Origin: Streptomyces gardneri | GTDB lineage: Bacteria > Actinomycetota > Actinomycetes > Streptomycetales > Streptomycetaceae | Length of the DNA stretch: 64,000 bases | Assembly (NCBI RefSeq): GCF_006539185.1 | Contig: NZ_BJMN01000028.1 | Location: 1-64,000, forward strand | Reading direction: 5' to 3' | Shown here: positions 29,599 through 32,997 of the stretch, in pieces | How positions within the stretch are numbered: position 1 is the first letter of the stretch | Layout of the letters: each line of letters begins with the position of its first letter | The notes under the pieces: model-generated | Told to the model about the DNA's origin: nothing | Database searches by the model: none | The model's input: only the letters and a program-made list of their open reading frames with translations | Position numbers and translations under genes: made by a program

Positions 29599-30072
29599 TC
29601 ACGGCGCCTCGGGGGCGGTGTAGCGCGCGCCGACGGCGTCCAGCGCCCCCGAGAGCCGTTCCAGCACCCGTACGGTCTCGTCGAAGGCCTCCTGGCCGCC
29701 CAACTCCCGTGCGAGCAGGGCCGCCAGCTCCGCGTGGCCCGGTTCGATGCGGCCGATCGCCGCCCGGCCCGCCTCCGTGGGCGTGAGGAGCTTGGCGCGC
29801 CGGTGGGCCGGGTTCGGCTCGTACGCCGCGAGGCCCTCCCGTACGAGCAGGTCCGCGATCCGCTGGACGCTCTGGCGGGTGATGCCCATGACGCGGGCGA
29901 TCCCGGCGACCGGCAGCGGTTCGGGGAGGACGGCGCCGAGGACCTGCCACCAGGCGGCGGTCAGGCCGGCCGGTTCGGCCAGTTTCTCCGAGACGGCGAG
30001 GAACTGGCCGTTCAGGCGGAAGACGCCCAGGGCGGTACGGGACAGGGCGTCCTGCTGCTGCCTGTCGCTCAC
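29599..30072 (-). CDS. MarR family regulator
   Basis: A 157-residue winged-helix dimer. ITRQSVQRIADLLVREGL is the recognition helix region, followed by the wing ANPAHRRAKLLTPTEAG (here PNPAHRRAKLL). The start at 30072 overlaps the stop of the DJ-1 gene by 4 nt, so it is the second gene of that operon. It is the obvious candidate to bind the paired palindromes at 30674-30708 and repress its own operon. The inducing ligand is unknown. Confidence 0.92.
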   Translation of the reverse strand: MSDRQQQDALSRTALGVFRLNGQFLAVSEKLAEPAGLTAAWWQVLGAVLPEPLPVAGIARVMGITRQSVQRIADLLVREGLAAYEPNPAHRRAKLLTPTEAGRAAIGRIEPGHAELAALLARELGGQEAFDETVRVLERLSGALDAVGARYTAPEAP

Positions 30073-30674
30073 GAGTTCAGCTCGACGAAGGCCGCCGGGT
30101 CCGAGTCGTGGAAGAGGCGGTACCAGGCGTCCCGCTTGCCCTCGTACGCACCCAGCCGGGCGAAGATCTCCCGCGCGAACGCGACCGGTTCGGTCGGGCC
30201 CGCCGTGATCAGGTCCCCGTCCGTCACCGCGTCCGCGTCGACGTAGTGCTCACCGCCCTTGTAGCCGGTGGCGGCGAGGTAGAACGAGACGGCGCTGGTG
30301 TGCGGGCGGTCGTCGAGCAGGCCCTCCTTCGCCAGGCCCGCCGTGGCGCCGCAGATCGCGGCGACCGGCACGCCGGCGTCGAGGAAGGTCCGGGCCTTGG
30401 CCGTGAAGGGGGCGAGCTCCTCGCCCTCGTCGTACTTCTCGGCGCCCGGGAGGATCAGCAGGGCGCTGTCCTCGGGACGGAGGTCGTCGAGCGCGAGGTC
30501 GGGGACGATCCGGATGCCGGCGATCGTCGTGACGGGCTCCCCGGCGACCGGGCCGACGGTCCGGATCGTGTACCCGGCGCGGGTGAGCCAGGCCGTGGCG
30601 TGGCCCGTCTCCCAGTCGGCGAGGGTGTCGTAGACGGCGAGATGAACGGTCGTGGTGTCGCTCTCGGTTCCCAT
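30069..30674 (-). CDS. DJ-1/PfpI family protein
   Basis: A 201-residue class I glutamine-amidotransferase-like protein. The nucleophile cysteine sits in VAAICGATAGLA (about residue 107) at the usual nucleophile elbow, and an upstream glycine-rich LLILPGAEKYDE matches the family. Members act as deglycases, chaperones or isonitrile/aldehyde hydratases; the exact role is unclear. The ATG lies 6 nt after a -10 CAGTCT with TTGACA at 17-bp spacing, a clear leaderless promoter embedded in operators. First gene of a two-gene operon with the MarR gene. Confidence 0.9.
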   Translation of the reverse strand: MGTESDTTTVHLAVYDTLADWETGHATAWLTRAGYTIRTVGPVAGEPVTTIAGIRIVPDLALDDLRPEDSALLILPGAEKYDEGEELAPFTAKARTFLDAGVPVAAICGATAGLAKEGLLDDRPHTSAVSFYLAATGYKGGEHYVDADAVTDGDLITAGPTEPVAFAREIFARLGAYEGKRDAWYRLFHDSDPAAFVELNS

Positions 30675-30709
30675 GACAGAAGACTGTCATGATGACAGCT
30701 TGCTGTCAA
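30674..30709 (-). promoter_or_regulatory. leaderless promoter covered by two identical palindromic operators
   Basis: On the minus strand TTGACA (30709-30704), 17 bases, CAGTCT (30686-30681), 6 bases, then the ATG at 30674. Two copies of TGACAG-N4-CTGTCA occupy 30674-30689 and 30693-30708, centres 19 bp apart on the same helix face. The first overlaps the start codon and -10, the second the -35. A repressor dimer at each site would block the promoter completely. Confidence 0.88.
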
Positions 30710-30840: not shown

Positions 30841-32205
30841 ATGACCCCTCATGTCGCCGCACCCGATCCCCAGGCCGGCGCGGCCGTCAAGGCCGCCGAC
30901 CGCGCGCACGTCTTCCACTCCTGGTCCGCCCAGGGTCTGATCGACCCGCTCGCCGTCGCCGGCGCCGAGGGTTCGTACTTCTGGGACTACGACGGAAACC
31001 GCTACCTCGACTTCTCCAGCGGTCTCGTCTACACGAACATCGGCTACCAGCACCCCAAGGTCGTCGCCGCGATCCAGGAGCAGGCCGGCAAGCTCGCGAC
31101 CTTCGCGCCCGCCTTCGCCGTGGACGTCCGCTCCGAGGCCGCACGCCTCATCGCCGAGCGCACCCCGGGCGACCTGGACAAGATCTTCTTCACCAACGGC
31201 GGCGCCGAGGCCGTCGAGAACGCCGTCCGGATGGCCCGTCTGCACACGGGCCGCCACAAGGTGCTCTCCGCCTTCCGCTCGTACCACGGCGCCACCTCCA
31301 CCGCGATCAACCTCACCGGCGACCCGCGCCGCTGGGCCTCCGACACCGGCACCGCCGGCGTCGTGCGCTTCTGGGCGCCCTTCCTCTACCGCTCGCCGTT
31401 CTACTCCGAGAACGAGCAGCAGGAGTGCGAGCGCGCCCTCGCGCACCTGGAGGACACGATCGCCTTCGAGGGTCCGGCGACGATCGCCGCGATCATCCTG
31501 GAGAGCGTGCCCGGCACCGCCGGCATCATGACCCCGCCGCCCGGCTACCTGGCCGGCGTCCGCGAGATCTGCGACAAGTACGGCATCGTCTTCGTCCTCG
31601 ACGAGGTCATGGCCGGCTTCGGCCGCACGGGCAAGTGGTTCGCCGCCGACAACTTCGACGTCGTGCCCGACCTGATCACCTTCGCGAAGGGCGTGAACTC
31701 CGGCTACGTGCCGCTCGGCGGCGTCGCCATCAACGCCGAGATCGCCGCGACCTTCGACAAGCGGCCCTACCCGGGCGGTATGACCTACTCGGGTCACCCG
31801 CTGGCCTGCGCCGCCGCCGTCGCCACCATCCAGGTGATGGAGGACGAGAAGGTCGTCGAGCACGCGGCCCACATCGGCGAGAACGTCCTCGGCCCCGGCC
31901 TGCGCGAGCTCGCCGAGCGCCACCCGTCCGTCGGCGACGTGCGCGGCCTGGGTGTCTTCTGGGCGATCGAACTGGTCAGGGACCGCGAGACGCGCGAGCC
32001 GCTCGTCCCGTACAACGCCGCCGGCGAGGCCGCCGCGCCGATGGCCGCCGTGGGCTCCACGATGAAGAAGAACGGCCTGTGGCCCTTCATCAACATGAAC
32101 CGCGTGCACGCCGTCCCCGCCTGCAACGTCTCCGAGTCCGAGGTCAAGGAGGGCCTGGCAGCCCTGGACGTCGCGCTGTCGGTGGCTGACGAGTACACCG
32201 CGTAA
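30841..32205 (+). CDS. class III PLP-dependent aminotransferase
   Basis: A 454-residue omega-type aminotransferase. The cofactor lysine is in ITFAKGVNSGYVPLGG (about residue 285), preceded by VFVLDEVMAGFGRTGKWFA; FFTNGGAEAVENAVRMAR binds the phosphate. The family acts on beta-alanine, taurine, GABA, putrescine or related amino donors with pyruvate or 2-oxoglutarate, and the sequence does not decide among them. ATG 30841 lies 7 nt after TACCCT (30828-30833), a leaderless arrangement. A GntR regulator follows 84 bases downstream and may control it. Confidence 0.9.
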   Translation: MTPHVAAPDPQAGAAVKAADRAHVFHSWSAQGLIDPLAVAGAEGSYFWDYDGNRYLDFSSGLVYTNIGYQHPKVVAAIQEQAGKLATFAPAFAVDVRSEAARLIAERTPGDLDKIFFTNGGAEAVENAVRMARLHTGRHKVLSAFRSYHGATSTAINLTGDPRRWASDTGTAGVVRFWAPFLYRSPFYSENEQQECERALAHLEDTIAFEGPATIAAIILESVPGTAGIMTPPPGYLAGVREICDKYGIVFVLDEVMAGFGRTGKWFAADNFDVVPDLITFAKGVNSGYVPLGGVAINAEIAATFDKRPYPGGMTYSGHPLACAAAVATIQVMEDEKVVEHAAHIGENVLGPGLRELAERHPSVGDVRGLGVFWAIELVRDRETREPLVPYNAAGEAAAPMAAVGSTMKKNGLWPFINMNRVHAVPACNVSESEVKEGLAALDVALSVADEYTA

Positions 32206-32289: not shown

Positions 32290-32997
32290 ATGCCCGCGAG
32301 CGGAGCTGTCACCCGCAACACCTTGCGACAGCAGATCGCGGACGCGCTGCGTGACGAGGTGCTCGCGGGCCGTCTCCAGCCGGGCCAGGAATTCACGGTC
32401 AAGCAGATCGCCGAGCAGTACGGGGTGTCCGCGACGCCCGTACGGGAAGCCCTCGTCGACCTCTGCGCGCAGGGGCTCCTCGACTCCGACCAGCACCGCG
32501 GCTTCCGCGTCCACCAGTACTCGGTCGACGACTACCGGCGGATGGTCGAGGCCAGGATGCTCGTCGTCGACGGCATCTTCCGCCGCGACGCCGCCATGGT
32601 GCCGCCCCGCTCCGTGCCCACGGAACCCGACCTCGGGGTCGGGGTCGCGCTCGTCTCCGTACGCCGCAGGGGCGAGGCCGCGGCCCGCGCCGCCCGCGCC
32701 GGCGACCTGGACGTCCTCATCGGCTACGACATCCGCTACTGGCGTGAACTGGCCCGCCTGGTCGCCGCCAACGACTACATCGCCGAGTTCCTGCACCGGC
32801 TCCGCGTCCAGGCCTGGGTCTTCTCCGTGCCCTATCTGCGCTCCGAGCGGGACATGAACGGCTGGCTGTGGAGCGGCCACATCGATCTGGTGGACGCCAT
32901 CACGCGCGGCGACGCGGAGGGGGCCGTCGAGGTCGTGCGGGACTACAACACGCACTCCCTCGAGTGGGCTGACCGCCTGGAGAACCGCGCGCGTTGA
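32290..32997 (+). CDS. GntR/FadR family regulator
   Basis: A 235-residue regulator. The N-terminal winged HTH (LRQQIADALRDEVLAGRLQPGQEF then GVSATPVREALVDLCAQGLL) is classic GntR; the C-terminal helical part is FCD-like (DDYRRMVEARMLVVDGIFRR, GHIDLVDAITRGDAEGAVEVV). ATG 32290 has weak ribosome-site support. TAGGGT at 32254-32259 is a likely -10, and CCCTCCG/CGGAGGG arms (32240-32278 region) flank it as a possible self-operator. It follows the aminotransferase gene in the same direction, suggesting shared metabolic control. Confidence 0.88.
   Translation: MPASGAVTRNTLRQQIADALRDEVLAGRLQPGQEFTVKQIAEQYGVSATPVREALVDLCAQGLLDSDQHRGFRVHQYSVDDYRRMVEARMLVVDGIFRRDAAMVPPRSVPTEPDLGVGVALVSVRRRGEAAARAARAGDLDVLIGYDIRYWRELARLVAANDYIAEFLHRLRVQAWVFSVPYLRSERDMNGWLWSGHIDLVDAITRGDAEGAVEVVRDYNTHSLEWADRLENRAR

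Follow-up and report, generated by a model that had tools for sequence, protein, structure and literature searches.

A palindrome pair over the DJ-1/MarR promoter of Streptomyces gardneri as the probable operator of the operon's own MarR-family regulator

In Streptomyces gardneri, the promoter region of a two-gene operon coding for a DJ-1/PfpI family protein and a MarR family regulator carries two copies of the palindrome TGACAG-N4-CTGTCA, which raises the question of which protein these palindromes serve and how far their layout is set by the promoter that they cover. The stretch of DNA analysed, referred to as the window, comprises 64,000 nt (contig NZ_BJMN01000028.1, positions 1 to 64,000). 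Comparison with orthologous loci and related genomes indicates that the palindromes are very likely dedicated operators of the operon's own MarR protein, which would repress its own operon by promoter occlusion. The features concerned are as follows, with positions in the window.

29599..30072, minus strand: MarR family regulator, 157 aa, GTG start (Pfam PF12802, 7.1e-15); candidate binder of the palindromes
30069..30674, minus strand: DJ-1/PfpI family protein, 201 aa (Pfam PF01965, 2.1e-28)
30672..30674, minus strand: start codon (ATG) of the DJ-1 gene, placed at the predicted +1; no earlier start codon follows the in-frame stop
30674..30689, no strand assigned: putative operator palindrome 2 (start-proximal), TGACAG-N4-CTGTCA, exact match; holds the -10 and the predicted +1
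30681..30686, minus strand: predicted -10 element CAGTCT, from the sequence; A2 and T6 present in 109/109 loci with the pair
30693..30708, no strand assigned: putative operator palindrome 1 (promoter-distal), TGACAG-N4-CTGTCA, exact match; holds the -35
30704..30709, minus strand: predicted -35 element TTGACA, from the sequence; first T present in 109/109 loci with the pair
30841..32205, plus strand: class-III aminotransferase, divergent (NF004718, 794 bits); divergent upstream in 72/80 loci from Streptomyces records
32290-32997: GntR/FCD regulator, divergent to the operon

The letters at 30674-30689 are TGACAGAAGACTGTCA and those at 30693-30708 are TGACAGCTTGCTGTCA. The layout described in an earlier note, two exact TGACAG-N4-CTGTCA palindromes 19 bp apart over the -35, the -10 and the start codon, was confirmed in the sequence; the 19 bp are counted start to start and leave a gap of 3 bp. 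That note had also called the two operators identical, which is true of the half-sites, the arms being the same in both palindromes, but not of the 4-bp centres (AAGA versus CTTG). The genome scan that it proposed for the 16-bp site found exact matches at two places in 9.03 Mb, both at the DJ-1/MarR promoter. Under an order-1 Markov model of the window, 0.0017 exact single sites are expected per 64 kb and 0.24 per 9.03 Mb, and exact pairs at a fixed spacing are expected 6e-9 times per 9.03 Mb. Sites with up to 2 mismatches showed no surplus in the whole genome (89 places versus 112 for the reversed control), and the 2 matches of this kind inside the window were not above chance (shuffle mean, 1.45). 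The non-random features of the palindromes are their exactness, pairing and conservation.

Conservation was assessed in 110 orthologous loci with both genes, 80 from Streptomyces records and 30 others, the window's own included; L001-L004 were excluded from the counts, not being orthologous loci. These loci, some of which share a genome or belong to nearly identical ones, represent 99 distinct protein pairs, and 109 of the 110 have the palindrome pair ahead of the operon, with 0-5 mismatches over 24 fixed bases. Absence of the site upstream of orthologous operons, named earlier as the observation that would speak against the operator, was thus not encountered. The spacing was 19 bp in 105 loci and 20 bp in 4; the exception, L111, has one palindrome and was omitted from the profile and from the start-codon count. 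All 17 further loci (L115-L131) had the pair at 19 bp with 0-3 mismatches, and 16 of 18 more two-gene loci (L152-L169), chosen because the pattern search had missed or did not list them, had it with 0-5 mismatches. Of the other two, L153 has one palindrome and L155 has one plus a weak one. A profile built from the 95 distinct loci with 19-bp spacing scored 44-71 bits in those orthologs and, with the longer spacing allowed, 61-65 bits in five loci at 20 bp, and its best score elsewhere in the window was -24 bits.

Related sites were also found farther away. Across the family, a less constrained pattern (fewer fixed bases, ≤1 mismatch) matched in 39/200 genomes from 4/17 genera, and the reversed control had no match in the table for the same 200 genomes. 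L144, the one match from another genus that was examined, contains both genes and the pair. Two distant homologs (40-51% identity across the aligned region) come with related pairs of a more degenerate kind (L148, 22 bits; L150, 40 bits); these adjoin the MarR gene, and the profile fits best pointing away from it.

The predicted promoter and the palindromes share the same bases. TTGACA starts one base ahead of palindrome 1, CAGTCT lies in the middle of palindrome 2, and the A of the DJ-1 ATG is the last base of palindrome 2; the spacer between -35 and -10 is 17 bp, and 6 bases separate the -10 from the ATG. CAGTCT agrees with TATAAT at 2/6 positions, and its A2 and T6, but not its first base, fit the Streptomyces -10 consensus TANNNT. 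This consensus was described in S. avermitilis, together with BTGACN for the -35 (PMC8780764). Both the window sequence and the 95-locus profile place the operator over the predicted -35 and -10 of the operon. T1 of the -35 and T6 of the -10 never vary in the profile, whereas their dyad mates do, that of the -35 T being A or T. In both palindromes, dyad pairs 2-5 are symmetric in 73-95 of the 95 loci, and pairs 2 and 5 in all 95; the outermost pair of palindrome 1 is symmetric in just 27 loci and the sixth pair of palindrome 2 in 67. Since the promoter T's are invariant without dyad partners and the dyad pairs are themselves symmetric, the constraints imposed by promoter and operator are partly separable. 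Together they form a conserved island of about 38 bp, running from 2 bases before palindrome 1 to 1 base after palindrome 2. No comparable conservation was found outside the island in the 95 loci, from 25 bases before to 79 bases after the start of palindrome 1.

The dependence of the site on either gene was examined in 199 same-genus genomes, counting a double site with ≤3 mismatches and a MarR match with E ≤ 1e-20. The double site occurred in 104/199 genomes versus 2/199 for the reversed control, and a MarR match in 114/199. Both were present in 104 genomes, MarR alone in 10, the site alone in none and neither in 85 (Fisher test, p = 2e-45, for genomes that share ancestry). Among the 10 MarR-positive genomes lacking the pattern, three have the 20-bp spacing (G072, G153 [L015] and G172 [L014]), four have a single site or degenerate ones (G078, G081, G093 and G198), and three have only homologs of 45-58% identity (G095, G175 and G186).

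Because of the shared ancestry, natural gene losses weigh more than the Fisher p-value. In four genomes (G047, G105, G120 and G184), MarR is present with the double site upstream of it (40-52 bits), and none of the four has a DJ-1 match at E ≤ 1e-25; in G120 (L136), the MarR ATG sits exactly on the last base of palindrome 2. Conversely, DJ-1 is present without a MarR match in G076 and G113, and the operator there is a remnant, scoring -1 bit in G113 and 10 bits in G076 (20-bp spacing, TTGACA lost). The mismatch count of the G076 remnant (5) equals that of the five weakest accepted orthologs, from which it is set apart by the lost TTGACA and the profile score. The operator therefore follows the regulator gene in evolution, as seen in the co-occurrence table and in both kinds of gene dissociation. 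Judged from these genomes, the palindromes depend on MarR and not on DJ-1.

The properties of the regulator are in keeping with a DNA-binding protein of this family. Its GTG start overlaps the DJ-1 stop by 4 bases (GTGA), the PF12802 winged-helix domain is recognised with 55.4 bits against a cut-off of 27, and the AlphaFold model has a pLDDT of 91.8 and a pTM of 0.76. The best Foldseek matches of the model in the PDB are MarR-type regulators, including the DNA complexes 3gfi, 8ylg and 3q5f. The recognition helix as the source of specificity was considered and found unsupported: eight homologs with 52-62% identity have nearly the same helix (RQSVQR), yet lack the palindrome site. Five paralogs with 52-55% identity (L141, L143, L145, L146 and L147) have another upstream element in common, GCGCTGTTATCGTGCAGCG, with one base different in L146; it is likely to be their own operator or promoter.

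Three other explanations were weighed against control by the operon's own MarR. The palindromes might be bound by another regulator, such as the neighbouring GntR protein, with MarR a mere neighbour; the GntR/FCD gene lies 1.6 kb off in the window, and in the MarR-only loci L134-L137, in which no aminotransferase turned up, such a gene immediately adjoins the site. G113 is informative here, having kept both GntR/FCD and DJ-1 but, with no MarR match, just a weak remnant of the site, and the site was found in 0/85 genomes without a MarR match; we consider binding by another regulator very unlikely. Still less credible, to the point of being almost negligible, is the idea that the palindromes reflect chance or pure promoter constraint and have no operator function. 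Although the -35 and -10 do fall inside them and near matches with up to 2 mismatches are no commoner in the genome than those of the reversed control, symmetric bases beyond the two hexamers are conserved, exact pairs are hardly expected in a genome of this size (6e-9), and the co-occurrence table speaks against either version; moreover, the two MarR-less genomes retained DJ-1 but not intact palindromes.

The third possibility concerns the direction of control: MarR bound at the pair might be an activator or have a dual role, or it might chiefly control the divergent aminotransferase. The persistence of this gene next to the operon (72/80 loci) is in its favour, as is the distance from its first codon, extrapolated from the match, to palindrome 1, which is 90-169 bp in 64/72 loci and 208-1071 bp in the rest. 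However, the palindromes sit on the core of the DJ-1 promoter, which is a repressor position; on the aminotransferase side of the island, none of the 23 preceding positions is conserved in the 95-locus profile; and L134-L137 retain both MarR and the site, the DNA retrieved around them showing no aminotransferase. An activating or dual role, or one aimed chiefly at the aminotransferase, is accordingly improbable, about as much so as binding by another regulator.

Autorepression by the operon's MarR, as proposed in the earlier note, is thus supported by the conservation of the site, the co-occurrence table and the gene-loss cases. MarR-family sites are 16-20 bp long (PMC5401885, PMC6018408) and often overlap the -10 and -35 (PMC5401885), and the 16-bp palindromes are conserved together with the MarR gene (109/110 loci; 104/199 genomes). 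For this operator we infer physical binding, repression, a transcription start site and a ligand in the following way. One MarR dimer would bind each TGACAG-N4-CTGTCA, occupancy of palindrome 1 blocking the -35 and that of palindrome 2 the -10 and the +1. RNA polymerase would be shut out and both DJ-1 and MarR kept low by negative autoregulation, until a small ligand frees MarR, upon which DJ-1 and new MarR could be made. In the window, the mRNA would begin with the AUG itself.

Cooperative binding, also predicted earlier, draws no evidence from the spacing. The -35 lies within one palindrome and the -10 within the other, so the promoter spacer forces the distance between the palindromes: spacers of 17 and 18 bp yield the observed 19 and 20 bp, and the 17-bp spacer alone fixes 19 bp. 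Cooperativity as deduced from spacing was therefore rejected. At 10.5 bp per turn, two dimers 19 bp apart would differ in orientation by approximately 70 degrees, an angle that is compatible with contact between them but does not require it.

The DJ-1 ATG of the window is the first ATG, GTG or TTG after the upstream in-frame stop, and no Shine-Dalgarno (SD) sequence was found in the preceding bases, CAGTCTTCTGTC. From the promoter spacing and the lack of an alternative start, a leaderless start is predicted. The claim of a leaderless promoter is supported, as a prediction, for the window genome. Start classes were assigned in the 109 loci with the pair according to how far the start codon lies from the predicted +1, and only 20 combine a +1 ATG with the lack of an SD-led ATG; among them, six loci (L027, L056-L059 and L063) contain a later in-frame GTG with no SD at the usual distance. 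In 81 loci, an SD-led ATG lies 19-176 nt downstream of the same promoter's +1, two loci (L014 and L068) have both a +1 ATG and an SD-led ATG in frame, and six (L008, L041, L042, L045, L047 and L079) have a later ATG with no 4-base SD match. L017, L055, L085 and L104, with a start codon 3-7 nt past +1 plus an SD-led ATG, and L097, with its +1 ATG out of frame, were scored as leadered. The leaderless start as a conserved state was therefore rejected. On a quick tree of the 99 distinct pairs, the leaderless label required 6 changes, with the starred branches forcing at least 3 changes; within the window's clade, parsimony fits gains and reversions alike.

Leaderless mRNAs arise from approximately 21% of primary transcription start sites in S. 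coelicolor (PMC4895711) and make up 22.2% of mRNAs in S. avermitilis (PMC8780764), so such starts are frequent in the genus. The most notable side finding is the apparent repeated gain of a +1 AUG inside the operator. It may be, with the chances evenly balanced in our view, that the operator-promoter core of about 38 bp is a fixed 5′-end module onto which translation starts are grafted, the +1 AUG having been gained in several lineages. Most examined loci would then produce an mRNA with an SD-bearing leader, and in several lineages the +1 AUG would have arisen by base changes at the end of the operator. L014 and L068 would be in-between forms, and L136 a case in which MarR itself has the +1 AUG, DJ-1 being absent. 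If this is true, one orthologous operon under one repressor offers a natural record of how leaderless translation originates. The leadered and leaderless orthologs provide a ready test set for this question.

The DJ-1 protein belongs to the DJ-1/PfpI superfamily, having the PF01965 domain in common with 3efe, 2fex and YdeA (3f5d) and possessing the nucleophile C108 with E22. Because E22, C108 and H125 are kept in all 110 aligned loci, it is probably an active enzyme. Its three NCBIfam scores, 34.9/131.25, 34.1/330 and 49.5/139.05 bits (score/cut-off), all fall short of what the models covering glyoxalase III, PfpI and deglycase demand, and a methylglyoxal link for the operon is a guess. The earlier proposal that the inducer is the compound handled by DJ-1 is weakened by the four genomes that keep MarR and the operator with no DJ-1 match. 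OhrR, MosR and AbfR represent a thiol-sensing type of MarR protein with a conserved reactive cysteine. Assignment to this type was rejected, the window MarR containing no cysteine and 108 of the 110 MarR orthologs having none in the aligned region. The idea that MarR detects a reactive compound through a thiol is thus not supported, and thiol sensing of oxidants by MarR is unlikely.

The reach of the regulon was examined with exact single sites, which were present in 70/199 genomes. Inspected by eye, most of the exact-site matches listed were at the DJ-1/MarR locus, and an exact site occurred in 8 of the 85 MarR-negative genomes versus 5 with the reversed control. A second double-site match in G109 is a 3-mismatch place away from the DJ-1/MarR locus. 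A wider regulon was rejected, since no second target was supported by exact sites in the 199 genomes.

Several observations on neighbouring genes were made along the way. In the window, MarR is followed by a convergent DUF2785 gene and then by a GH19 chitinase with CBM5/12; in L134, L136 and L138, a protein kinase gene (PF00069) follows the MarR homolog. In G076 (L132, 2313-3206), MarR's place after DJ-1 is taken by a 297-aa ORF, for which no Pfam match and no MarR similarity were found. In L149 (1362-1413), the last base of an exact TGACAG-N4-CTGTCA starts the ATG of a distant MarR homolog (48%), and a second palindrome with one mismatch lies 36 bp on, within the coding region.

By this comparison, an uncharacterised MarR protein with matches in more than half of the same-genus genomes is assigned a putative operator and one likely target operon. 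One repressor, one promoter and a 38-bp core would make a clean reporter for the ligand and hence provide a clue to the DJ-1 enzyme. Among the matches listed in a literature search, no description of the MarR/DJ-1 operon or of its operator was found. MexR of Pseudomonas aeruginosa has two adjacent inverted repeats in mexR-mexA, each a dimer site, over a promoter; it differs from the window MarR in controlling an efflux operon, in its half-site and in its divergent arrangement. CrtR of Corynebacterium glutamicum is, like the window MarR, an actinobacterial MarR protein whose motif lies over the -35 and -10 of its target, and its own mRNA is cited as leaderless, as predicted for DJ-1 in the window; its TTAA motif, divergent carotenoid operon and isoprenoid pyrophosphates as effectors are unlike the situation here (PMC5401885).

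The nearest described case among the matches listed is SCO3205 of S. coelicolor (PMC3737563). It too is a streptomycete MarR protein for which two operators were predicted by comparing orthologous upstream regions, with negative autoregulation assumed from the place of the operator, and its operators were later tested by SPR and by a crystal structure of the DNA complex (PMC3737563). Its consensus, TTnAAnnnTCAA, is unlike TGACAG-N4-CTGTCA, and its two motifs are positioned 36 nt ahead of sco3204 and 21 nt ahead of the divergent sco3205, whereas both palindromes of the window lie on one promoter (PMC3737563).
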